From: Methanohalophilus portucalensis
GTDB taxonomy: Archaea; Halobacteriota; Methanosarcinia; Methanosarcinales; Methanosarcinaceae
Assembly: GCF_002761295.1 (NCBI RefSeq)
Contig: NZ_CP017881.1
Location: 1,735,750 to 1,799,749 of the forward strand
DNA length: 64,000 nt
Direction: 5' to 3'
Part shown: in pieces, positions 1 through 9,950 of the stretch
How the letters are laid out: each line of letters begins with the position of its first letter
Position numbering within the stretch: the first letter of the stretch is position 1
Position numbers and translations under genes: made by a program
Notes under the pieces: model-generated
What the model saw: only the letters and a program-made list of their open reading frames with translations
Told to the model about the DNA's origin: nothing
The model's database searches: none

Positions 1-320
1 ATGATTTCTCCACTAGGAGTCATATTCATATGGTAAATTTGTTCTTCTGATTTGGTATTAGTCACCGTTTTAGTTAGCACTTTCAAATTTATATGATTGT
101 TTTCTTCGCTTACCACATAGATATCAGTAGTTTCAGAAACTTTTGTACTTGGTTTTTCGATTGCAGTTAGAACTTCGTAGCTATATTGCTCGCCCTGCTT
201 AAAGTTATACTTCAACTCATATTTCTCTAAATCGTTTTGTTGGGAAGTTACAAGGCACCCAGCAGTTAGCAAAAATAATGTGATTAATGCTATTAATGTT
301 ATTGATAATTTAAAATTCAT
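1..320 (-). CDS. Secreted lipoprotein, 3' part outside window
   Basis: The first 106 codons are present and the gene runs off the left edge of the window. The N-terminus is a short basic stretch, a hydrophobic core and the lipobox LLTAGC (Cys at residue 22), so the product is probably a lipid-anchored extracellular protein. The visible mature part is hydrophilic and beta-prone, with the segment YNFKQGEQYSYEVLTAIEK; I recognise no family. The ATG at 320 is the only good start ahead of the signal peptide. It lies 17 bases after the small membrane-protein gene and seems to be the third gene of the first peptide cassette. A surface lipoprotein next to a peptide antibiotic could serve immunity or capture, but that is inference. 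Confidence 0.75.
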   Translation of the reverse strand, partial: MNFKLSITLIALITLFLLTAGCLVTSQQNDLEKYELKYNFKQGEQYSYEVLTAIEKPSTKVSETTDIYVVSEENNHINLKVLTKTVTNTKSEEQIYHMNMTPSGEI

Positions 321-337
321 ATAAATACTCCAAGATG

Positions 338-649
338 TCATTTTAATGTTTTTATATAATCTACTACAGCCAGTAAGAGAAATGTAATACCAAGTATTAG
401 TGCATAGTAATTACCTGAGGTAACATAAGATCCAATAATAACTGCAGAGATAAATAAAACAACCAAGTATTTACAAACCCCGCCATATTCTGTTTTATAC
501 ATACCAATGGACGAAAACAATGCAGCAAAACTGAGCAAAATCATATCCACATAATACTTTGAAACAACAAAATATCCGTAGAAAATCCACAATACTATGA
601 AACAAAAAATGATAAAGGGGATGTATCTCCCCATTTTAGTCATTACCAA
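338..649 (-). CDS. Small four-helix membrane protein, candidate immunity protein
   Basis: A 103-residue, very hydrophobic protein with about four predicted membrane helices (around residues 9-28, 31-48, 56-74 and 78-97) and a basic end (DYIKTLK). A good ribosome binding site (AAAGGAGG) precedes the ATG/GTG start region. The gene lies 9 bases behind the halocin C8-like precursor, and cassette 2 has a similar-sized membrane protein in exactly the same place. Small membrane proteins next to peptide antibiotic genes are often self-immunity factors; that role is inferred from position only. No family was recognised. Confidence 0.7.
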   Translation of the reverse strand: MVMTKMGRYIPFIIFCFIVLWIFYGYFVVSKYYVDMILLSFAALFSSIGMYKTEYGGVCKYLVVLFISAVIIGSYVTSGNYYALILGITFLLLAVVDYIKTLK

Positions 650-658
650 GTCCTCCTT

Positions 659-1279
659 TCAACAATGAGTTTCTGCCATCTCACAAGCGTCTTCAAAGCC
701 CTCTGAACAACCACATAAATAGCATGGACACAGTGAATCGTATGCTGCAGCTGCAAGACATGCTACACAAAGTGCTCCCATGGTTAGTACTCCTCCACTA
801 ACACAGACTGCTGAGCAACCAATTCCATAAATTAATATTCTTGTTAGGCATGTTCCACAATCAGTGACTCCGCGCACTGCCAAACTTTCGCCCGTCTGAT
901 CATTATATGCATAATTCAACCCATCAATATTCCCGTCAGCATCTTCAAATTTAAATGTTGAAACTTTGGCATCAACAACAGATCCATCTTCTGCAGTTAT
1001 TTCTAGGCTGTATGTTTCAACATCCTTTTGTTCAAATCCTTCTTCTTTTAGTTCTTCTTTAAGGCTAATGATTGCCTTATCTGCAAGAGCTTTATCTAGA
1101 AGTTCATCCCTGTCGTTTCCTTTTAATTCAACAGGTTCTCCCATCATTATATTGTCATCACATGTCTTCTCGCCACATGTTCCGCCAGGCACACATGCCA
1201 TAGCAGGCACTACTGAAAACATACTCACAACCAACATTACCATAAGCAATGCTGCAATTCTAATTCCCTTACTTTTCAT
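659..1279 (-). CDS. Secreted halocin C8-like cysteine-rich precursor
   Basis: The 206-residue product starts with a Sec-type signal peptide (residues 1-28, ending VVPAMA before Cys29). A charged, cysteine-poor middle domain follows (about 35-135). The C-terminal core (about 139-206) is hydrophobic, Gly/Ala-rich and has 12 cysteines in the pattern C-x2-C-x10-C-x3-C-x11-C-x2-C-x8-C-x-C-x2-C-x-C-x7-C-x6-C. The segment with GCSAVC resembles the mature microhalocin HalC8 (which I recall as containing GCSAAGGFICG), and the order immunity-like domain then toxin-like core matches the HalC8 precursor. The signal peptide is homologous to that of the precursor at 3989-4630. The start is fixed by a GAGGCGAAG ribosome binding site. 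Alternatives are a secreted metal-binding or structural cysteine-rich protein. The archaeocin function is inference. Confidence 0.6.
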   Translation of the reverse strand: MKSKGIRIAALLMVMLVVSMFSVVPAMACVPGGTCGEKTCDDNIMMGEPVELKGNDRDELLDKALADKAIISLKEELKEEGFEQKDVETYSLEITAEDGSVVDAKVSTFKFEDADGNIDGLNYAYNDQTGESLAVRGVTDCGTCLTRILIYGIGCSAVCVSGGVLTMGALCVACLAAAAYDSLCPCYLCGCSEGFEDACEMAETHC

Positions 1280-1712
1280 TTCTTCGCCTCTTTGATTTTA
1301 TTCCAGAGACAAAGCTATGTTTATATAGTGTAAACCACAACCTAACCCTGCCTCCGGGCCAATGTGGAGTTCTGTTTGATAACGCGCATTCAAGCTCCAC
1401 ATTGCAAAATACTATAATGTAATACCATATATAGTTGAGGATTACACATATTAGCTTTCTTGTTAACAAAAATGTCGTTAATATTTATAATAAAAAATAT
1501 GTATGAGAAGCATACAAAGTAATCATCCTCTAAATTTACAGAAATTCTTTTATATAAACTAAAATATATATAAATTATATTATCAAAAATGAATTAAAGA
1601 TGAAAGACTGAATTATTCCTCCCCATTGATTTTTCATTAATATAACAGATGAATATTAATTACTCCGTTTTTGAGGGTTATCTTTTTGATTCCTATTAAA
1701 CATAATTTTATC
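1276..1712. repeat. Duplicated upstream block, copy A
   Basis: About 440 bases upstream of the first precursor align end to end with 4627-5063 upstream of the second. The promoter-proximal 230 bases and the distal 90 bases (1613-1703 versus 4962-5053) are nearly identical; the middle is diverged but still alignable. The proximal 190 bases recur a third time at 9384-9571. The block contains the TATA box, an inverted repeat and AT-rich tracts. It also accounts for most of the 448-base gene-free stretch 1470-1917; the rest of that stretch (1713-1917) shows nothing I recognise. Confidence 0.9.
1320..1403 (-). promoter_or_regulatory. Promoter module A: TATA box plus inverted-repeat operator
   Basis: Read on the minus strand, the TATA box is CTATATAAA (1328-1320), about 40 bases before the start codon, which predicts a short leader. 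Upstream of it is the inverted repeat AATGTGGAG (1361-1369) / CTCCACATT (1395-1403) with 25 bases between the arms. The same module occurs at 4671-4754 and 9418-9501. Position upstream of the TATA box suits an activator site, though a repressor is possible. Confidence 0.65.
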
Positions 1713-1917
1713 CCAAGCTTGACAGTATCCGCTCCTTGATGAAGATATCTTTTCCTCTTTCAACCTAAAATTTCCGCTTTTTTTGCCAGGAAACCCGTTT
1801 GACAATATGGTCTATTTTACGACAATTTCTACGAGTTTATCCTTTTTTGTCTTAAAGACAGTGTTCTAAAATACACTATTTATTTGGTTTCTCATGTAAT
1901 CGACCGTAAGTGCCAGA

Positions 1918-2121
1918 TTACTGAGTGAACATTATGTAAAGCATGCCACCTATTAAAAAACCAACTGGATAAAAAATAGCTCTGGTGGGTGTTTTGGTTG
2001 TATCACCTATTGATTTCCATATTCCTTTGTAACGATATGGTTTGTATTTTTTGAGATAAAACGGATATAGTGACATAATAGTAAGAACGGCAACAGTAAC
2101 TATAATTGGTCCAACAGTCAT
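1918..2121 (-). CDS. Small membrane protein of unknown function
   Basis: A 67-residue protein with an N-terminal membrane helix (about 4-23), a basic/aromatic loop (KKYKPYRYKG) and a second helix near the C-terminus (about 48-65). An AGGTGA ribosome binding site lies 7 bases before the ATG, which supports it as a real gene. It is the last minus-strand gene of the region behind cassette 2, separated by about 40 bases from the thioredoxin-like pseudogene. No family was recognised. Confidence 0.6.
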   Translation of the reverse strand: MTVGPIIVTVAVLTIMSLYPFYLKKYKPYRYKGIWKSIGDTTKTPTRAIFYPVGFLIGGMLYIMFTQ

Positions 2122-2160
2122 GATCTTTCACCTATTAATACATACATTGATTTGAAATAT

Positions 2161-2486
2161 TTATAAAAAATAAAAATTGTGCTTATTAATATCATACATA
2201 GTGGGATGAATCAGCCCTTTTCTATATATTATGAAAGACACGAAAAATATTATGACCACAGCCGGAACCTCAATAAAGCCGTATTGATTCAACCGGTTGA
2301 ACACTTCAGTGTTTATGACATCGGTTCTCACAATTTCTACGTCTTCATATTCTTTTTCAATTTGATCAATAATAAGATCTGTTATCTCGCAGTCATGGCA
2401 ACCTGTCTGATGGAAATATTCGACATATAGTGGTTGTGCACCAGATATAGGAATTGACAGTAGAAGAAAAGAAAAAATCTCACCAT
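2161..2486 (-). pseudogene. Secreted thioredoxin-like protein, frameshifted in a T run
   Basis: An ATG at 2486, overlapping the stop of the upstream gene and preceded by AGGGGG, begins MVRFF and then shifts out of frame within a run of six T. In the frame one base away the reading continues uninterrupted as a signal peptide (FSFLLLSIPISGAQ), then YVEYFHQTGCHDCE, which is the CxxC active-site helix start of a thioredoxin/glutaredoxin fold, and later GFIEVPAVVI, which fits the cis-proline strand. Adding one T to the run restores one gene of about 107 codons. It may be a pseudogene, a sequencing error or a slippage-regulated gene. Its place behind a cysteine-rich secreted peptide suggests a disulfide-forming helper. 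Confidence 0.6.
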
Positions 2487-3655
2487 TTTTTCCCCCTAAA
2501 CATTATGAGAATTGCTATAGCTCCTATCAAAGGTGAAAGGCCTAACGGTATTAATTCTGGTTCTGATTGGGAAGAAGAATCGATCGTTTCAATTGTATTT
2601 TTAAATTCTACTATTGCATTTGCTTGTTCTTTTGCAATAAATGCATTGCGTATAGATATGTCTGCAAGAGGTATAGAACTGGTTGAATCTTTTATTCTGG
2701 ATTCTTCTAACCGAATTTTTGCGGATTCAAAATGAAGTACTATTATGGGAGCATCAATTTCAGGATTGCCAAGAAGGCTGCTCAGGGATGCATTTGTATT
2801 TTCCATTTGTTTTTCAGCGCTACGTATAGCCTCTTTGTGACCTACAACCCTTTTATAGTCAATTCCAAAATCAGCCAGAGCTTTAGCTTCTGCTGCATTC
2901 ATAGTTGCCAAATAGTATCTTTCTGCAGAATAGTGCTGCTTTGCAGTTTCCAATATGTTTTCGGAAGAGGCGAGTATATCTTTTCGGTTTCCCGATTCAC
3001 TTAAGATCTTTATTTGCTCGTCTGCAACCTGTATCCATTTGGATGCAGTTTCTTCTCCACCTTCAATACTCTGGATATGATTTATTTTTGAAGACTCATT
3101 GTTCTTATGTTTTGCAACATTTAACAAATTTTCTGCCTTATAAATAGCGAAATTTGATTCAATTAACGTTTCCAAAGTATCATTGAAATTTCCATTATCA
3201 TAATGTTCTTGAGAAATAGAGAAATAACGTCTACTTTCTTCAATTTCATTCTCAGCAAGAGAAAACCATTCCATTCCCGAAAAGCTTAAATTGTTTTCAC
3301 TTAGACCTGCTAATTGTTCATCAATTTCATTATTTTTACTCTCAATTTCATCAAACGTGTCATCAATAACGATTTTAGTTCCATGAACAGAGGCCATGTC
3401 ATTCATGTCCATTTTCATAACAATTCTACGACATTTTAATGCTAAATTATAAGTGTAAAATGGATATTCCTTACTGTATTCAGAAGACTGGGTATAAAAT
3501 TCATTCAATGGAAAAGTGGAGTTGTTTTGATAATAAAATGATAATTCTGAGATCTCTTTTGAAGATAAGTCGTAAAATATATTTTCTTCGGAAGCTGCCG
3601 GAACTATCGATATAATTACAATTACGAGTAAATAAAGTAATTTTTTAATATTCAT
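2480..3655 (-). CDS. Secreted, C-terminally membrane-anchored helical protein
   Basis: A 391-residue protein with a signal peptide (residues 1-22, cleavage near PAASEEN), a long acidic alpha-helical ectodomain rich in Glu, Asn and Ser, and a C-terminal anchor (PLGLSPLIGAIAILIMF, followed by RGKKW). The helices contain repeated segments of the type AENEIEESRRYF and AEKQMEN, hinting at TPR-like or coiled-coil hairpins. The start has an AGGGGAT ribosome binding site. It follows the small membrane protein by 12 bases and its stop overlaps the next start, so it belongs to the cassette 2 operon. It could act as a surface receptor, immunity or export factor; the function is unknown. Confidence 0.75.
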   Translation of the reverse strand: MNIKKLLYLLVIVIISIVPAASEENIFYDLSSKEISELSFYYQNNSTFPLNEFYTQSSEYSKEYPFYTYNLALKCRRIVMKMDMNDMASVHGTKIVIDDTFDEIESKNNEIDEQLAGLSENNLSFSGMEWFSLAENEIEESRRYFSISQEHYDNGNFNDTLETLIESNFAIYKAENLLNVAKHKNNESSKINHIQSIEGGEETASKWIQVADEQIKILSESGNRKDILASSENILETAKQHYSAERYYLATMNAAEAKALADFGIDYKRVVGHKEAIRSAEKQMENTNASLSSLLGNPEIDAPIIVLHFESAKIRLEESRIKDSTSSIPLADISIRNAFIAKEQANAIVEFKNTIETIDSSSQSEPELIPLGLSPLIGAIAILIMFRGKKW

Positions 3656-3667
3656 AAAATCCCCTAT

Positions 3668-3961
3668 TTATTGGATGAAGTATGTTGCTATAATTACACC
3701 AGAAATACCGCAAATAAGACAAAATATTGCGAATAACAGTGATTGGATTTGCGTCCATTTTTTTTCTCTAGCAACTAGATAGAAGTATATACCAATCAAA
3801 AACAGAATTGGTGAAAAAATCGATTCATACATTGATAATATCTCAAATTTTAAAATAAAGTAATTAAAGATTATTTCAAATATATCAATCAAAATTGTGG
3901 CGAATATAAAAAGTAGAAATAACTGTGAAGGTTTGTATTGTTTGTAGCCAATCATGATCAT
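3668..3961 (-). CDS. Small membrane protein, candidate immunity protein of cassette 2
   Basis: A 97-residue protein with three to four membrane helices (about 13-33, 45-63 and 74-95) and a basic loop (AREKKWTQ). A GGAGG ribosome binding site precedes the start region (ATG ATC ATG; the exact Met is uncertain). It sits 27 bases behind the second cysteine-rich precursor. Position, size and topology parallel the 338-649 protein in cassette 1, but I see no clear sequence identity. An immunity function is inferred from position. Confidence 0.7.
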   Translation of the reverse strand: MIMIGYKQYKPSQLFLLFIFATILIDIFEIIFNYFILKFEILSMYESIFSPILFLIGIYFYLVAREKKWTQIQSLLFAIFCLICGISGVIIATYFIQ

Positions 3962-3988
3962 AATCCTCCAAAAAAGATAAATGCTGTA

Positions 3989-4630
3989 TTAACATACAGC
4001 ATCACAAATTGCATCACAGTAGACCGTTATGTCTACGAAACAAATACCTAGGCATATGCCCACACACGCTACATATCCGACACCAGTTGGAGCAAGGACT
4101 CCACAAAGATATGGACAAGCTGCACCACATCCCTGGCCTCCTAAACCAGCACATGTGCCCATACATAATTCGTAACAATCAATACTTTGAGTTGTTACCA
4201 TCCCTGAAGCTGAATCATATACAGTAATTTTGCCACTGTTAGATGTGGAATCTCCTGCAATATTTACTGATATTTCCTGACCTTTGTCTGATACTAATGA
4301 TACTTGGTATCCACCCACTATCACTGATGAAGTTCCACTCCATACTTCTGTTATTTCATAATTTTTCGATATGTCGTAAAGTTTAAATGAGTCGGCAGAC
4401 TCTTGATAACTGAATATAAACCCACCTGTGTCTGGATTTTTTGAAATGGAATACTCCTCAGGCAGGCTTATTTCCTCTGCTACAAGTTTCAAAATTTTCT
4501 TTTCAGCAGACTTGTCTATAGGTTCTTGTGGTCCTTGTGGTGCACACGCCATAGCCGGTGCTATCGCAAACATACTCATAACTAGCATTGCCATAAACAA
4601 TGCTGCAATTCTTGTTCCTTTATTTTTCAT
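3989..4630 (-). CDS. Secreted precursor with symmetric twelve-cysteine C-terminal core
   Basis: The 213-residue product has a signal peptide (1-28, ending APAMA before Cys29) homologous to that of 659-1279. A beta-rich cysteine-free middle domain follows (about 35-148), then a 62-residue core (152-213). The core's twelve cysteines form two identical halves, each C-x3-C-x3-C-x7-C-x3-C-x3-C, joined by 12 residues. On helices this puts cysteines on one face, suggesting four short helices clamped by disulfides or by metal. The architecture matches HalC8-type archaeocin precursors (leader, immunity-like domain, toxin core). A Cys-lined metal-storage peptide is the main alternative. The start is set by GAGGCGAAG just upstream, with the shared promoter module before it. 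Confidence 0.65.
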   Translation of the reverse strand: MKNKGTRIAALFMAMLVMSMFAIAPAMACAPQGPQEPIDKSAEKKILKLVAEEISLPEEYSISKNPDTGGFIFSYQESADSFKLYDISKNYEITEVWSGTSSVIVGGYQVSLVSDKGQEISVNIAGDSTSNSGKITVYDSASGMVTTQSIDCYELCMGTCAGLGGQGCGAACPYLCGVLAPTGVGYVACVGICLGICFVDITVYCDAICDAVC

Positions 4631-5063
4631 TTCTTCGCCTCTTTGATTTTATTCCAGAGGCAAAGCTATGTTTATATAGTGTAAACCACAACCTAATCCT
4701 GCCTCCGGGCCAATGTGGAGTTCTGATTGGTAACGCACATTCAAACTCCACATTGTAAAATACTATAATGTAATGGTATATATAGTTGAGGGTTACACAT
4801 ATTAGCTTTCTTATTAACAAAAATGTCGTTAATATTTATAATAAAAATATGTATGAGCTCTATATAAAATAATTATTTCTTACCTTTGTAGAAATATTCT
4901 ATACTAATTAAAATATCTATAATTTGTAACATCAAAAAGGAATTACCGGTGAAAAAACCGAGTTATTCCTCCCCATTGATTTTTCATTAATATAACAGAT
5001 GAATATTAATTACTCCGTTTTTGAGGGTTATCTTTTTGATGCCTATTAAACATATTTTATCAT
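4627..5063. repeat. Duplicated upstream block, copy B
   Basis: This is the second copy of the block at 1276-1712, covering most of the 498 bases between the cassette 2 precursor and the plus-strand gene at 5129. Identity is highest in the promoter-proximal part and in 4962-5053. Homology continues into the signal-peptide codons of both precursors, so promoter plus 5' gene end were duplicated together. Bases 5064-5128 are unique and carry the ribosome binding site of the 5129 gene. Confidence 0.9.
4671..4754 (-). promoter_or_regulatory. Promoter module B: TATA box plus 11-base inverted repeat
   Basis: The minus-strand TATA box CTATATAAA is at 4679-4671. The inverted repeat here is perfect over 11 bases, AATGTGGAGTT (4712-4722) / AACTCCACATT (4744-4754). 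Copies A and C keep nine bases of each arm, so the arms are the constrained part. The arrangement relative to the start codon is the same as in module A. Confidence 0.65.
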
Positions 5064-5128
5064 CTAATCTATACTTTATTTTGAATTTTAATTGTTTGAA
5101 AAGTATGTAAACTATAGGAGGAGTGGAA

Positions 5129-6688
5129 ATGGTAAGTTTTGGGGATGTTTTTGACGTAGTAGCAGGAGTGGCAACAGGTGGATTATACACACTTGGTAAA
5201 TCGATTTATGAGAGCAGTGAATCTGCAGGGGATGCCGCAGAAGCCGCAGGTATATCCATCGCGATAATTGGCTCGACAATCCAATCCGTAGGAGAACAGC
5301 TAAATTCTTTCCTGCAGGAAACAGAAGAACTCATAACCATAAGAAGGCTGAGCCCACGGGCAGAAAATGATCTCTGGGAAGAAGAGAAAGACAGACTTGA
5401 TGAACTGAAAATTGAAAAACAGGAATTGTTGCAACAACTTCAAAATCTGGGTTTGGAAGACCCTCTGGATTTTTCCTTTACATTCGGGGATATGATTTCA
5501 GATATGGAAAATGTACTGGAAAAGTTCGAAATCCTGTCAAGAATCGCAGCTATCAACGGTCAGATAATGGAGATTCTCTACAAGGAACCGGGAGTTCTTA
5601 CCACCGGGATATACAACGCAAAAGAAGTTCTTGAACGCCTGAATACCGTTGAACAGCCTATGATAGAAGATGTCCTCGGAGGAATTGATGACAATCTGGA
5701 GGTTAGTGAAGAAGTATTGACAGAAACAAAGAAATTGTTTGTTACCAAAGAAAAGGTACCTATATCCATTACAGACCTTAAACCTGCACAGAAACTTAAA
5801 CTTGACAGAATAACTGCACGTAAAGCCTACTTCAATGACCTGATAGAACGCAAAGGTGAGATAACATCATCCCTGCAATCCTTAATGAAAGAAATGCCTG
5901 CTGCAAAATTTGAAGTGAAGAAGGATATCATTCAACCTGTGGGAAAGATTGATACATCCGACTACCTGAAATTTCCAACACCCGCTTTATTAGGGCAGGA
6001 TTCATCCAGTTTCATGCCAGAAAGTGATGATAATGAAGTTAAAAGAACCTTTAATCCTGATGATCTGAAAAATGAAGAGAATCAATTTGCAAAGATCGAC
6101 ACAGGAAAAAGGGATTACCAAAATACGGAAGAAAAATCTGGATTTAAAGATAAAATACCTTCAAACACAGAGGCAAACATTTCAGCTATAAGGAATTCAT
6201 TAGAATCTTCAGGAAAACATTCACTGGAAAAAGAACAGCCTGCAGGTGCAAGGGTTTCAGCTTCCATTGCGACAAAATTTGATGGCTACCAGCGCAATTT
6301 TGATCATATCCTGGCCCAAAGTTCCCTTTATGAAAGGCAATTGCATAAACTTGAAAAAGAAGAATTAATGCTAACCCATATCTGGAAGGATACACCCGGC
6401 ATTATCCCGCAAACCCTTGATGAAGCTCATGGGGTCCTGGAAAGCTTGCATAACGACCAACAACCACGCATCAATACTGTGCTGGACAACCTGAATGATA
6501 ATCTTGAAGAATCAAAAGAAACACTTTCAAAAGCAAACGACACAATGGATTCAGTACAACAATCCCTTTCAATATTCGATTTCAATACCACATGGCTCAA
6601 ATACGGATTAATAGCAATCGGAGGGCTTGTTGTATTGAATTTACTGATGGGGCTTATAGTGCTTACACGTACGGCTTTTGGAATATAA
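5129..6688 (+). CDS. Tail-anchored coiled-coil protein of unknown function
   Basis: About 519 residues. The N-terminal 40 residues are Gly/Ala-rich and amphipathic (VVAGVATGGLYTLGKSIYES). Most of the protein is acidic, helical and coiled-coil-like (for example RLDELKIEKQELLQQLQNL). Two segments resemble each other (around 95-200 and 400-490: EPGVLTTGIYNAKEVLERL versus TPGIIPQTLDEAHGVLESL, both followed by a DDNLE or NDNLE motif), so it has an internal duplication. A C-terminal helix (about 492-513) would anchor it in the membrane. The ATG at 5129 is preferred over GTG at 5123 because AGGAGGAG lies at the right distance. It is the only plus-strand gene among the peptide cassettes, and no family was recognised. 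Confidence 0.8.
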   Translation: MVSFGDVFDVVAGVATGGLYTLGKSIYESSESAGDAAEAAGISIAIIGSTIQSVGEQLNSFLQETEELITIRRLSPRAENDLWEEEKDRLDELKIEKQELLQQLQNLGLEDPLDFSFTFGDMISDMENVLEKFEILSRIAAINGQIMEILYKEPGVLTTGIYNAKEVLERLNTVEQPMIEDVLGGIDDNLEVSEEVLTETKKLFVTKEKVPISITDLKPAQKLKLDRITARKAYFNDLIERKGEITSSLQSLMKEMPAAKFEVKKDIIQPVGKIDTSDYLKFPTPALLGQDSSSFMPESDDNEVKRTFNPDDLKNEENQFAKIDTGKRDYQNTEEKSGFKDKIPSNTEANISAIRNSLESSGKHSLEKEQPAGARVSASIATKFDGYQRNFDHILAQSSLYERQLHKLEKEELMLTHIWKDTPGIIPQTLDEAHGVLESLHNDQQPRINTVLDNLNDNLEESKETLSKANDTMDSVQQSLSIFDFNTTWLKYGLIAIGGLVVLNLLMGLIVLTRTAFGI

Positions 6689-6994
6689 GCAACTTTCAAT
6701 ACATAGGTTTAAATTTGGAAAGCTTAATAATAAAAAGGAGGTGGAAACTTAGAATCTCATTTGGACAATAAATTCAATAGAAATATTCTTAATGATATTA
6801 TGAATCAGTAAATTCAGTTATCAACTTTCGACTGTGCTTCTTTGGTTTTTCATTTTGCATCTTAGAAGAAAAAGGGCTACTCAAAGAGAATATAAAGTTT
6901 ATTTCCGTGATAAATCTCCTTTTCATGGATACATTAAATAAAGTAAACTTTCATAAGCAGCCAATATATGAACTGTCACCACACCAAAAAAGGA
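6689..6994. other. Gene-free AT-rich stretch with an orphan ribosome binding site
   Basis: This lies between two converging genes. It contains a strong AAGGAGGTGG at about 6736-6745 that is not followed by a usable open frame: the next in-frame codons reach a stop at once, and a TTG 17 bases on gives only 16 codons. There is also a loose inverted repeat AAAGTTTA / TAAACTTT near 6896-6954. It may be the decayed 5' end of a lost gene. Confidence 0.4.
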
Positions 6995-7678
6995 TTATTT
7001 AGTAGAGTGAATTAATTGTCCATATTCCATTGTAATAACCCTGTTTGCATTTTTTAATATATTCTGATCATGTGAAATTACAATAAGGGTTTTACCATTG
7101 TTATGCATACCTTCCAACATCCCAGCAATTTTTTCAGCTGATTTTCTGTCAAGATTTGCTGTAGGTTCATCTACAAGTACTATGGTTGGATCATTCATTA
7201 GTGACCTTGCTATCCCAACTTTTTGTTGCTCCCCTCCACTTAGTTCATTCGGGTAATGAAATAATCGAGCCTCTAACCCCTGCTCATATAATAATCGTCT
7301 TGCTATTTCAACTATGGTAGAATAATCTTTGTTTGCAATGATAGAAGGAACAATTACATTTTGTAACACATTGAACTCCCTAATGAGATTAAATTGTTGA
7401 AAAACCATACCTATTTTTTTATTTCTGAATTGAGAAAATTGTTCATCATTAAATGTGGATAGATCAAATCCATCAACCATAATCTTTCCACTTGTTGGTG
7501 TATCAAATCCTGCAATTAAATTGATTAATGTTGTCTTACCAGAACCTGACATTCCCATAATACCTAAAAATTCACCTCTCTTAACAGACAGGTCTACATT
7601 ATCAACTGCTTTCACTACATGGCTATTTTTCAAATATGTTTTTGAAACATTGTTCATATTAATGATGTTAGTTGCCAT
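6995..7678 (-). CDS. ABC transporter ATPase, MacB/LolD type
   Basis: A 227-residue nucleotide-binding subunit of the MacB/LolD/FtsE class, which powers permeases that extrude or release peptides and lipoproteins rather than importing solutes. Walker A is GMSGSGKT (about 42-49), the Q-loop is VFQQFN, the ABC signature is LSGGEQQ and Walker B is IVLVDEP with the switch His in VISHD. All catalytic residues look intact. It follows the permease by 3 bases and is the last gene of cassette 3. The arrangement (secreted lactococcin-like protein, large-ectodomain permease, ATPase) is that of bacterial lactococcin 972 loci, where the transporter is tied to immunity or export. The role here is inferred. 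Confidence 0.9.
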   Translation of the reverse strand: MATNIINMNNVSKTYLKNSHVVKAVDNVDLSVKRGEFLGIMGMSGSGKTTLINLIAGFDTPTSGKIMVDGFDLSTFNDEQFSQFRNKKIGMVFQQFNLIREFNVLQNVIVPSIIANKDYSTIVEIARRLLYEQGLEARLFHYPNELSGGEQQKVGIARSLMNDPTIVLVDEPTANLDRKSAEKIAGMLEGMHNNGKTLIVISHDQNILKNANRVITMEYGQLIHSTK

Positions 7679-7681
7679 AAA

Positions 7682-8863
7682 TTACACCTTCAATAATTTA
7701 GCAATCGGAATTTTACTGATTTTCCTATGACTGTACAACAAGGCTATTATAACAGCAATTGAATAAACAACTAAACCGATCATTATTCCTTGAAATCCCA
7801 CTTCTATTGGAAGATAAAGTTCAAACAATAACTGGTATATCAAATACTTTGTCACAATTAAAGCAAGAAATAATACACAAACCATAACAAGAATCTGTTC
7901 AATTGTGTATATTTTCATAATTTGCTTTTTGCTAGCCCCAAGTGAAGTTAATATAGAAAAATTTCTTTTCTTGCTATCAATAGCAATATTTTGCTCACGG
8001 AGGAGTATTGTAAGATGAAGCAATAATCCACCTGAAAAAAATACAATTCTTATAGTTAAGGGTAATAGCTCTTTCAATTCTGTTGCTGCTCTATTTAGTT
8101 GTTCTTCTTTAGTAGTTAGTACCCAATCTTTTTCATTTTTAGTCATATAAGCTTGGATATATTCAAATGTAGCCTCTTGGTTACTACTGGCTATGTACAA
8201 ATTACCAGCAAGTTCTTCATCTTCTGCAATAAGATCAATAGGTCTTGTATCTTCAATAATAAATTCTGTTTCAGAAGTCGGAATTGTTATACCTGTGATT
8301 TTATAAACATATTTGGAGCTGCCTACCCAATATATGATCGTGTCGCCAATATTAACATCCAGTCTCTTTGCTATATTCCAACCGACTAAAACAGATCTAA
8401 AATCCAGATATCCACTTTCAATATTACCTGAAATTAAGAAATGGTCAAGACCTATAATTTCGAGTTTTGATGTATTCTTAAGTGTTTCAGAATCCAATAA
8501 TAAAGTATTAACAGGAATAGTTGTTTCTATATAAGTATCACTAATATTTCCATTGTATACTTTCCCGGACCCATAACTACCAACTGCAGAATCAACAATA
8601 TTAGGCCCTTTTAATAATTGTGAATGGTCATATTTTGTAATTTCACCATTTACAAATATATCATAATTTGCTTTTTCTAAAGGAGAAAGTTGTTCATGTT
8701 CAAAACGAATGGGAACTAATATCAAAGTTAAAGCGATTGAGAAGACAATTGTTAAAACTAATAACTGCCTTAGCAATTGCCCAGGAGTTTTTCTAAATTC
8801 ATTTTTTAAATAAAAAAAAGAAAGATAGGAAATATAATCCCTCCTTTTAAGAAAGATTGACAT
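7682..8863 (-). CDS. MacB/FtsX-type ABC permease with large outside domain
   Basis: About 393 residues. One membrane helix near the N-terminus (LLVLTIVFSIALTLILVPI), an extracellular domain of about 200 residues, then three C-terminal helices (around IRIVFFSGGLLL, QILVMVCVLFLALIV and MIGLVVYSIAVIIALL) with the FtsX-like cytoplasmic loop NFSILTSLGASKKQIMKIY. This is the MacB-fold topology. Upstream Mets overlap the preceding gene; I chose the ATG at 8863. A strong AGGAGGGA at 8845-8838 lies inside the first codons and has no ATG, GTG or TTG in frame after it, so the start is uncertain. Translation is probably coupled to the secreted-protein gene, whose stop it overlaps. Confidence 0.8.
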   Translation of the reverse strand: MSIFLKRRDYISYLSFFYLKNEFRKTPGQLLRQLLVLTIVFSIALTLILVPIRFEHEQLSPLEKANYDIFVNGEITKYDHSQLLKGPNIVDSAVGSYGSGKVYNGNISDTYIETTIPVNTLLLDSETLKNTSKLEIIGLDHFLISGNIESGYLDFRSVLVGWNIAKRLDVNIGDTIIYWVGSSKYVYKITGITIPTSETEFIIEDTRPIDLIAEDEELAGNLYIASSNQEATFEYIQAYMTKNEKDWVLTTKEEQLNRAATELKELLPLTIRIVFFSGGLLLHLTILLREQNIAIDSKKRNFSILTSLGASKKQIMKIYTIEQILVMVCVLFLALIVTKYLIYQLLFELYLPIEVGFQGIMIGLVVYSIAVIIALLYSHRKISKIPIAKLLKV

Positions 8864-9374
8864 ACACATATGCATTATCGCCATTAGCAAGTGTCAATCC
8901 CGCATATTGACGAGCTTTATACCTCCCCGTATTTTTGGCATCTGCATTTGAATAAACATGTTTATTAGTAGGTCCCCCAAACATGCCCATTGAATAACGA
9001 TGAGTCCAAGCCTTACCTATCGCAGTATTCGACTTATAGACGTATTCGATATCCTCTGAAGATGATGTAACTTCAGGTTTATTGAAACCTTCATAACTTA
9101 TATCATTAGCAAACCATGCATATTCCGGAAGAGGCACTCCATAAACTTCAGCCTCATATGTAGCTTCTCCTTCAAAATCAAAATTTGAACCTACTGTTCC
9201 TTGATGTTTATCTACAGATAAACTTGCATCTGCAACCAGGCTCCTAATAGTTACGTTTTCTTCAATGTCAGGATTTAGATTTTCTTTTGCACTCACGGTT
9301 GGCATTAAGCAACACGCCATCAACAACATTGCTGCAAACAATATACTGATTTGAAATTTTGGTATATTCCTCAT
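8847..9374 (-). CDS. Secreted lactococcin 972-like candidate bacteriocin
   Basis: The 175-residue product has a signal peptide (1-29, cleavage after TVSA) and no cysteine in the mature part, unlike the other two precursors. The C-terminal 60 residues, rich in Tyr, Gly and Asn, contain NKHVYSNADAKNTGRYKAR and end in AYVYVNLS. This is reminiscent of lactococcin 972 family members, which are beta-sandwich toxins with a similar Ser/Asn-rich, GR-containing, Tyr-rich end. I judge this from pattern and from the following permease and ATPase genes, not from an alignment. The gene carries the shared promoter module although its coding sequence is unrelated to the cysteine-rich precursors. Confidence 0.55.
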   Translation of the reverse strand: MRNIPKFQISILFAAMLLMACCLMPTVSAKENLNPDIEENVTIRSLVADASLSVDKHQGTVGSNFDFEGEATYEAEVYGVPLPEYAWFANDISYEGFNKPEVTSSSEDIEYVYKSNTAIGKAWTHRYSMGMFGGPTNKHVYSNADAKNTGRYKARQYAGLTLANGDNAYVYVNLS

Positions 9375-9383
9375 TTTATTTCT

Positions 9384-9571
9384 ACCTCTTTGATTTTACT
9401 CCAGAGGCAAAGCTATGTTTATATAGTGTAAACCACAACCTAATCCTGCCTACGGGCCAATGTGGAGTTCTGATTGGTAACGCACATCCAATCTCCACAT
9501 TGTAAAATACTATAATGTAATGGTATATATAGTTGAGGGTTACACATATTAGCTTTCTTGTTAACAAAAAT
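9384..9571. repeat. Promoter-proximal part of the duplicated block, copy C
   Basis: About 190 bases nearly identical to the proximal parts of copies A and B. Identity ends sharply near the GTTAACAAAAAT segment, and the coding sequence downstream is not homologous. So here the promoter alone was mobilised or kept in front of a different secreted protein. Confidence 0.9.
9418..9501 (-). promoter_or_regulatory. Promoter module C: TATA box plus inverted repeat
   Basis: The minus-strand TATA box CTATATAAA is at 9426-9418. The inverted repeat AATGTGGAG (9459-9467) / CTCCACATT (9493-9501) has the same 25-base spacing as in modules A and B. The leader differs slightly near the start codon (AGAGGTAGAAATAAAATG). 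Confidence 0.65.
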
Positions 9572-9657
9572 AAGAGCAATCTTTGCACTAAAATTGTGTA
9601 TAGAAAACATAAATATATAAACTCTGACGGCAGGATAGTAAAACAAATTCTCATGAA

Positions 9658-9950
9658 TCATTTCTTGATAATATCCCTAAACTTAACCCTTCTGCGAGTC
9701 ATGATAACAGTTTTATCGGTACCACGAATGACCTGTTCAAGGAACACATCCTTCAGAAAGTTCTTGAAGAATGGGCGGGTGGTTGAGCCCAAAAAGATCA
9801 CATCATGATTCTTTGCCTCTTCATCAATTACGGACACTGCATCATCACCAACAATAAACTTGCTTTCGTTTTCCGCTCCCGATAAATGAGCGGAAACTCC
9901 ATGGAATACCTTGAAGAGAAAAGAAAAATACTGGAAAAGATTTTCTCTTT
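9658..9950 (-). pseudogene. C-terminal fragment of a universal stress protein domain
   Basis: The minus-strand frame ending in a TGA at 9658-9660 encodes about 96 residues, including DEEAKNHDVIFLGSTTRPFF, VFLEQVIRGTDKTVIMTRRR and KFRDIIKK. This is the C-terminal half of a UspA-type domain (nucleotide-binding beta strand and last helix), often found at the end of permeases. There is no start codon: the frame is closed by a stop at about 9951. The 5' part is missing, so the gene was cut at its junction with the fetB end. It marks an insertion or deletion boundary at the right edge of the peptide island. Confidence 0.65.

Follow-up and report, generated by a model that had tools for sequence, protein, structure and literature searches.

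Halocin C8 is a known antimicrobial, and its family is marked by an active core that is cleaved from the precursor and by immunity conferred by the pro-region. Makarova and colleagues reportedly expanded this family to diverse archaea in 2019, and proteins of the halocin C8 type are therefore to be expected outside the haloarchaea, but to our knowledge peptide antibiotics are hardly known from methanogens. In the PlcR-type exoprotein regulons of Bacillus one promoter element precedes many secreted enzymes and antimicrobial-type proteins, and the ToxR/CadC-type one-component regulators are membrane-anchored DNA-binding proteins. We use both as analogies, with no claim of homology, for a system found in Methanohalophilus portucalensis, a halophilic methanogenic archaeon whose genome is a single contig of 2.08 Mb. 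The stretch analysed (the window; 64,000 nt, bases 1735750–1799749) opens with three gene cassettes, headed by genes for the secreted proteins P1, P2 and P3 and preceded by copies of one promoter module. From sequence comparison we consider it fairly probable that all three belong to an exoprotein regulon of the Methanosarcinales that includes P1 and P2 as halocin-C8-type proteins and has a membrane-anchored regulator. The system would differ from PlcR and ToxR/CadC in its archaeal TATA promoter, in the double winged helix-turn-helix (wHTH) of another family and in a secreted beta-rich partner.

The three cassettes lie on the minus strand as the preliminary description had it, with the secreted protein first (open reading frames, ORFs, at 659–1279, 3989–4630 and 8847–9374, all with signal peptides) and genes for membrane or ATP-binding cassette (ABC) proteins behind. 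One shared module does stand before all of them: over ~240 nt upstream the three copies are 93–94% identical to each other, and similarity extends through the signal peptide as a 300-nt family (71–91%). The module model R1 recognises the copies of P1 (1302–1411; 87.0 bits, E = 1.2e-24), P2 (4653–4762; 90.8 bits) and P3 (9400–9509; 89.0 bits), all on the minus strand. The P1 copy consists of an inverted repeat, a GAGGCA box, a TATA box and a TGCCTC box, and the same elements emerge from an alignment of 31 module copies. In strong modules the repeat is GGRGTTCA-N~18-TGAACYCC, with GTGGAGTTC...GAACTCCAC or GTGGGGTTCAG...CTGAACCCC as variants in the alignment. The mirrored GAGGCA/TGCCTC pair flanks the TATA box, and the start codon follows ~25 nt past the conserved block and leads into a Sec-type signal peptide. 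In the P2 copy the arms occupy 4746–4754 and 4712–4720 and the TATA box 4672–4678.

The upstream segments of P1 and P2 are copies of each other. The segment at 1192–1708, which holds signal peptide, module and the next gene's leader, is repeated at 4543–5058 as two direct repeats (D1, 91%; D2, 95%), covering 300 + 106 nt at 91–95% identity; the 106-nt piece further upstream pairs 1603–1708 with 4953–5058 (95%). This repetition is evidence of cassette duplication, and the shared module might then be the mere trace of a recent segmental event with no regulatory meaning. We find that scarcely credible, given that the TATA box, the inverted repeat and their spacing are conserved before unrelated genes in distant genera and families, and that a candidate regulator gene (below) is linked to modules.

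Nor is the module confined to P1–P3. The M. portucalensis genome holds 7 strong copies plus weaker ones: a DNA search placed four strong copies outside the window, three in a row at 1268–1274 kb and one at 25 kb, and a profile search adds one at 2054388 and weaker matches. In a survey of the family Methanosarcinaceae (112 genomes, 14 genera) a profile built from sequence alone finds the module in 61 genomes and 9 genera, and P1- and P2-type cassettes too are conserved among these relatives. Three further families of the order (f3–f5), which were also searched, have the module as well, and there too most copies with a readable ORF precede signal-peptide ORFs. Within the regions fetched there are 104 distinct module–ORF pairs at E<1e-3. 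The ORF starts 18–30 nt after the module in 94 of them, and 100 have a signal-peptide-like N-terminus by a crude test; of the 45 long ORFs in the window itself, 11 pass it. Dinucleotide-shuffled sequence (3 × 652 kb) gave no module match at E<1e-3.

The genes behind the module are diverse. Among 102 downstream proteins Pfam identifies C39-like peptidases (12), reprolysin-like proteins (8), matrixins (2) and a transglutaminase (1), and NCBIfam places the halocin C8 domain in 2; a large family is akin to the serine proteases alpha-lytic protease and streptogrisin, and the remainder are mostly unnamed. One promoter element thus fronts many unrelated secreted proteins. Because peptidases and many other secreted proteins follow its copies, we take the module to mark a set of exoproteins rather than one of toxins. 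The co-regulation proposed for the three cassettes is supported by these comparisons, and the idea of one programme is kept; what has to be given up is a switch dedicated to archaeocins, as throughout the order the module also fronts peptidases and a wide range of further exoproteins.

The copies at 1268–1275 kb form a second island in M. portucalensis (L008:6000–13542), with three modules and genes for a 170-aa secreted protein, of which G105 has a homologue, for an alpha-lytic-like protease and for a transglutaminase-like protein. The last gene (L008:12204–13542, 1274 kb) is divided over two frames in M. portucalensis and intact, at 445 aa, in G031 (L068).

The arms of the inverted repeat are complementary at 9 or more of 10 positions in 65 of 127 modules, as against 7 of 635 shuffles; the automatic finder misplaced the arms in about one third of modules, and positive counts alone are used. 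They also covary, with A-T in 9 and G-C in 18 copies at one position and G-C in 6 and A-T in 6 at another. Such covariation would suit an RNA leader element, either an attenuator or a sensor, in place of a DNA operator. This seems to us very unlikely: no known RNA family in Rfam matched the module, and the TATA box, ~48 nt before the start, follows the repeat, which with normal archaeal spacing would not be transcribed. The position of the repeat upstream of the TATA box makes an operator more likely than an RNA element.

A candidate regulator emerged when the genes around modules and halocin-type islands were clustered. It is a ~244-aa protein, recovered from 14 genomes, and has an N-terminal signal or transmembrane (TM) segment, a short extracytoplasmic loop, a TM segment and two wHTH domains. 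A profile of it matches 66 of the 112 family genomes. Of the 120 copies listed, 28 (from 24 genomes) are at most 1 kb from a module, 21 of them divergent, whereas random placement would give 0.17; in these 24 genomes the candidate is genetically linked to the element. Module and regulator co-occur in 50 genomes, with 11 having the module only, 16 the regulator only and 35 neither (Fisher p = 9e-8, uncorrected for phylogeny). In several genomes the regulator gene is accompanied, often on its upstream side, by a gene for a small beta-rich secreted protein; the pair is divergent from a P1-type gene in G033 (Methanohalophilus) and in G124 (family f3). M. portucalensis has a single copy (1180256–1180960), adjoining the gene of a secreted protein that has a weak module. 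Taken together, these associations suggest that the exoprotein promoter is probably controlled by a membrane-anchored double wHTH protein.

Several observations weigh against this assignment. The M. portucalensis copy is 0.6 kb from a weak module match (E = 0.04) and away from the cassettes of the window. In the close relative M. profundi SLHTYRO (G035 of the comparison set; 89% complete) and in G037 modules are present and the regulator profile is unmatched. Many copies of the regulator lie away from any module, and the co-occurrence across genomes is partly phylogenetic. For Halobacteria, PMC8416519 mentions a transcriptional regulator in the vicinity of archaeocin genes. The Haloferax MarR-type regulator beside HalC8 was considered as an orthologue of our candidate and rejected, the two sharing generic wHTH similarity alone. 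As a separate observation, one regulator copy (G031:C14:195996–196694) carries a single in-frame TAG, which may be read as pyrrolysine or mark a pseudogene.

The short extracytoplasmic loop of the regulator, its divergent position next to a P1-type precursor gene in G033 and G124, and cores that differ between close strains would also fit another role for P1 and P2, that of cysteine-rich signals sensed by the membrane-anchored regulator, with exoproteins under self- or kin-sensing control. We regard this as unlikely. Many regulator copies adjoin modules of peptidase and other exoprotein genes rather than cysteine-rich ones, and the chain of homology described next ends at halocin C8, a known antimicrobial.

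P1 and P2 share the architecture of the halocin C8 family (TIGR04449), namely a signal peptide, a pro-region and a cysteine-rich C-terminal core of ~65–75 residues; their cores have 12 cysteines, as against 10 in the HalC8 core. Homology links the P1 pro-region with the pro-regions of methanogen proteins that exceed the curated TIGR04449 cutoff of 24 bits (hhalign 98.8%, E = 1e-15), and these in turn match haloarchaeal HalC8 by profile comparison in both pro-region (93%) and core (96%). The core of P2 shows weak similarity to the cores of the same methanogen proteins (56%, E = 1.6e-5), and its pro-region is not matched to theirs (6.7%). Proteins above the cutoff are encoded in 8 of the 112 family genomes; in G022 and G110 their genes stand behind the exoprotein module and in G062 one stands behind a weaker match. 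A thioredoxin-CcdA gene is linked to most of the TIGR04449-positive genes examined. None is annotated at the three haloarchaeal HalC8 loci read, and the redox partner therefore appears to be a methanogen-side feature.

On account of the P1 pro-region, the P2 core and the conserved linkage to thioredoxin-CcdA, the reading that suits P1 and P2 best is that of divergent precursors of the halocin C8 type. The likeness first noted between them and halocin C8 stands to that extent and fails at the level of family membership, where the following points count against our reading. Against TIGR04449 the P1 core gives no match, and that of P2 reaches 11.6 bits (E = 0.45), below the cutoff. Profile comparison detects no similarity between the P1 core and halocin C8-type cores. 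The signals of P1 and P2 are of the Sec type and lack a twin-arginine (Tat) motif, whereas at least 2 of the 3 haloarchaeal HalC8 proteins read carry a Tat signal. Apart from these points, neither P1 nor P2 matches a family model over its full length, and PADLOC returned generic ATPase and HTH matches and nothing more specific. AlphaFold (12-sequence alignment) models the P1 pro-region confidently, as helices followed by four strands, and the core below 50; the P1 model gave nothing better than E = 0.1 against PDB folds, and the P1 sequence no notable match in the PDB.

The lack of similarity between the P1 core and halocin C8 is also what would be expected if P1 and P2 were structural or metal-binding surface proteins whose cysteines need redox care, with a resemblance to halocin C8 limited to the pro-region. 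Thioredoxin-CcdA is a general thiol-redox module, and many module genes are non-toxin genes. This explanation is unlikely in our judgement: true halocin C8 domains share the pro-region and most are also linked to thioredoxin-CcdA, the P2 core retains its weak similarity, and cores vary while leaders stay fixed. Between P2 and its M. profundi counterpart, for instance, DNA identity is 98% over signal and pro-region and 82% over the core, a pattern to be expected of a fast-changing effector. In the M. profundi homologue (L063:8109–8746) the frame is broken by a 1-nt gap within the core, which may be decay or a sequencing error.

The remaining genes of both cassettes are on the minus strand. Behind P1 lie a 103-aa membrane protein gene kept in relatives (338–649) and the 5' part of a gene for a 281-aa lipoprotein (1–341), the cassette running beyond the left edge of the window. 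The order P1, small membrane protein, lipoprotein, thioredoxin-CcdA (the last outside the window) is conserved in relatives. P1-type cassettes lacking some parts also exist there, and thioredoxin-CcdA was not matched in the stretches read around the P1-type genes of G124, G173 and G135. In the P2 cassette follow a 97-aa membrane protein (3668–3961), kept in M. profundi and a second genus (G017), a 391-aa secreted protein with a C-terminal membrane segment (2480–3655), kept in other genera, and a thioredoxin-CcdA remnant (2251–2478) of residues 8–83 only (tblastn, 72% identity). This last gene, a fragment in the window, is intact in G017 and G044, and the conserved order is P2, small membrane protein, 391-aa protein, thioredoxin-CcdA.

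P3 is a 175-aa protein with a signal peptide (8847–9374), followed by an FtsX/MacB-like permease (7682–8842; PF02687, 37 bits) and an ABC ATPase of the LolD/MacB type (6995–7678), all on the minus strand. A small secreted protein before an ABC pair recalls the lactococcin 972 family (TIGR01653/TIGR03608), the ATPase scores 177.7 bits on TIGR03608 and a few P3 residues align by eye with lactococcin 972. For P3 to be a bacteriocin of this type with an ABC immunity pair is nonetheless improbable. The precursor has no HMM match to TIGR01653 at E<=10, and hhalign gives 0.5% with a score of 14.1, inside the shuffle range (maximum 17.9). The ATPase stays under the TIGR03608 cutoff of 254.85 bits and is fitted better by the LolD model (TIGR02211, 225.9 bits); in place of the long seven-TM immunity protein, which was not seen after P3, there is a short FtsX-type ORF of 402 aa. 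We therefore reject membership of P3 in the lactococcin 972 family. Within the family the mature part of P3 is found solely in M. portucalensis and M. profundi, and AlphaFold on the single protein is uninformative (pLDDT 28). P3 is, on present sequence comparisons, an orphan secreted protein beside an FtsX/LolD-type ABC pair.

A mechanism can be proposed in which the membrane-anchored one-component regulator would bind the inverted repeat, with which it is associated, and, once its signal is met, peptidases, other exoproteins, P1 and P2 would be secreted together. Judging by their signal peptides, P1 and P2 would be exported unfolded via Sec; such a precursor would need disulfide handling outside the cell, and the cassette-linked thioredoxin-CcdA may help to fold the cysteine-rich cores. 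The cores would then be cut from the pro-region and, like halocin C8, be directed against competing cells. Both this antimicrobial activity and direct control by the regulator are what we infer from the homologies and linkage above. P3, the weakest part of the scheme, may be a third secreted effector or a surface protein that the ABC pair exports or from which it protects the producer. We would give an even chance to the wider proposal that an order-wide one-component system, regulator plus secreted partner, jointly switches peptidases and halocin-C8-type peptides, its palindromic TATA promoter being inherited or copied together with the signal-peptide segment.

If the proposal is right, this would be an archaeal counterpart of the bacterial exoenzyme and bacteriocin regulons. 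Methanosarcinales are thought to use methyl compounds, acetate or H2 only, and a promoter shared with antimicrobial-type peptides offers a possible reason for the many secreted peptidases retained by strict methanogens; that peptidases are wired to such a promoter suggests a programme linked to social behaviour or to starvation. No account of the divergent cores, of the cassette with thioredoxin-CcdA, of the promoter shared across the order or of the candidate membrane regulator turned up in the literature searched, which did not include Makarova et al. 2019. The genes of the system can now be named, their conserved cassette brings along its own redox partner, and the switch is open to testing in an order to which the genetically tractable Methanosarcina belongs; were the regulator confirmed, one gene deletion would expose the entire secreted set.

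Some smaller features of the window remain. From the P2 cassette to that of P3, the plus strand encodes a coiled-coil protein of 521 aa (5123–6688) that has a membrane segment at its C-terminus and no family match; the 106 nt at 4953–5058 that are duplicated at 1603–1708 precede this gene. At 8834–8842 (minus strand) the FtsX permease gene has no ATG, GTG or TTG start past its ribosome-binding site, and an ATT start is possible. Immediately upstream of the P3 cassette, a short minus-strand ORF (9658–9837) resembles the C-terminal remains of a gene that has been lost.

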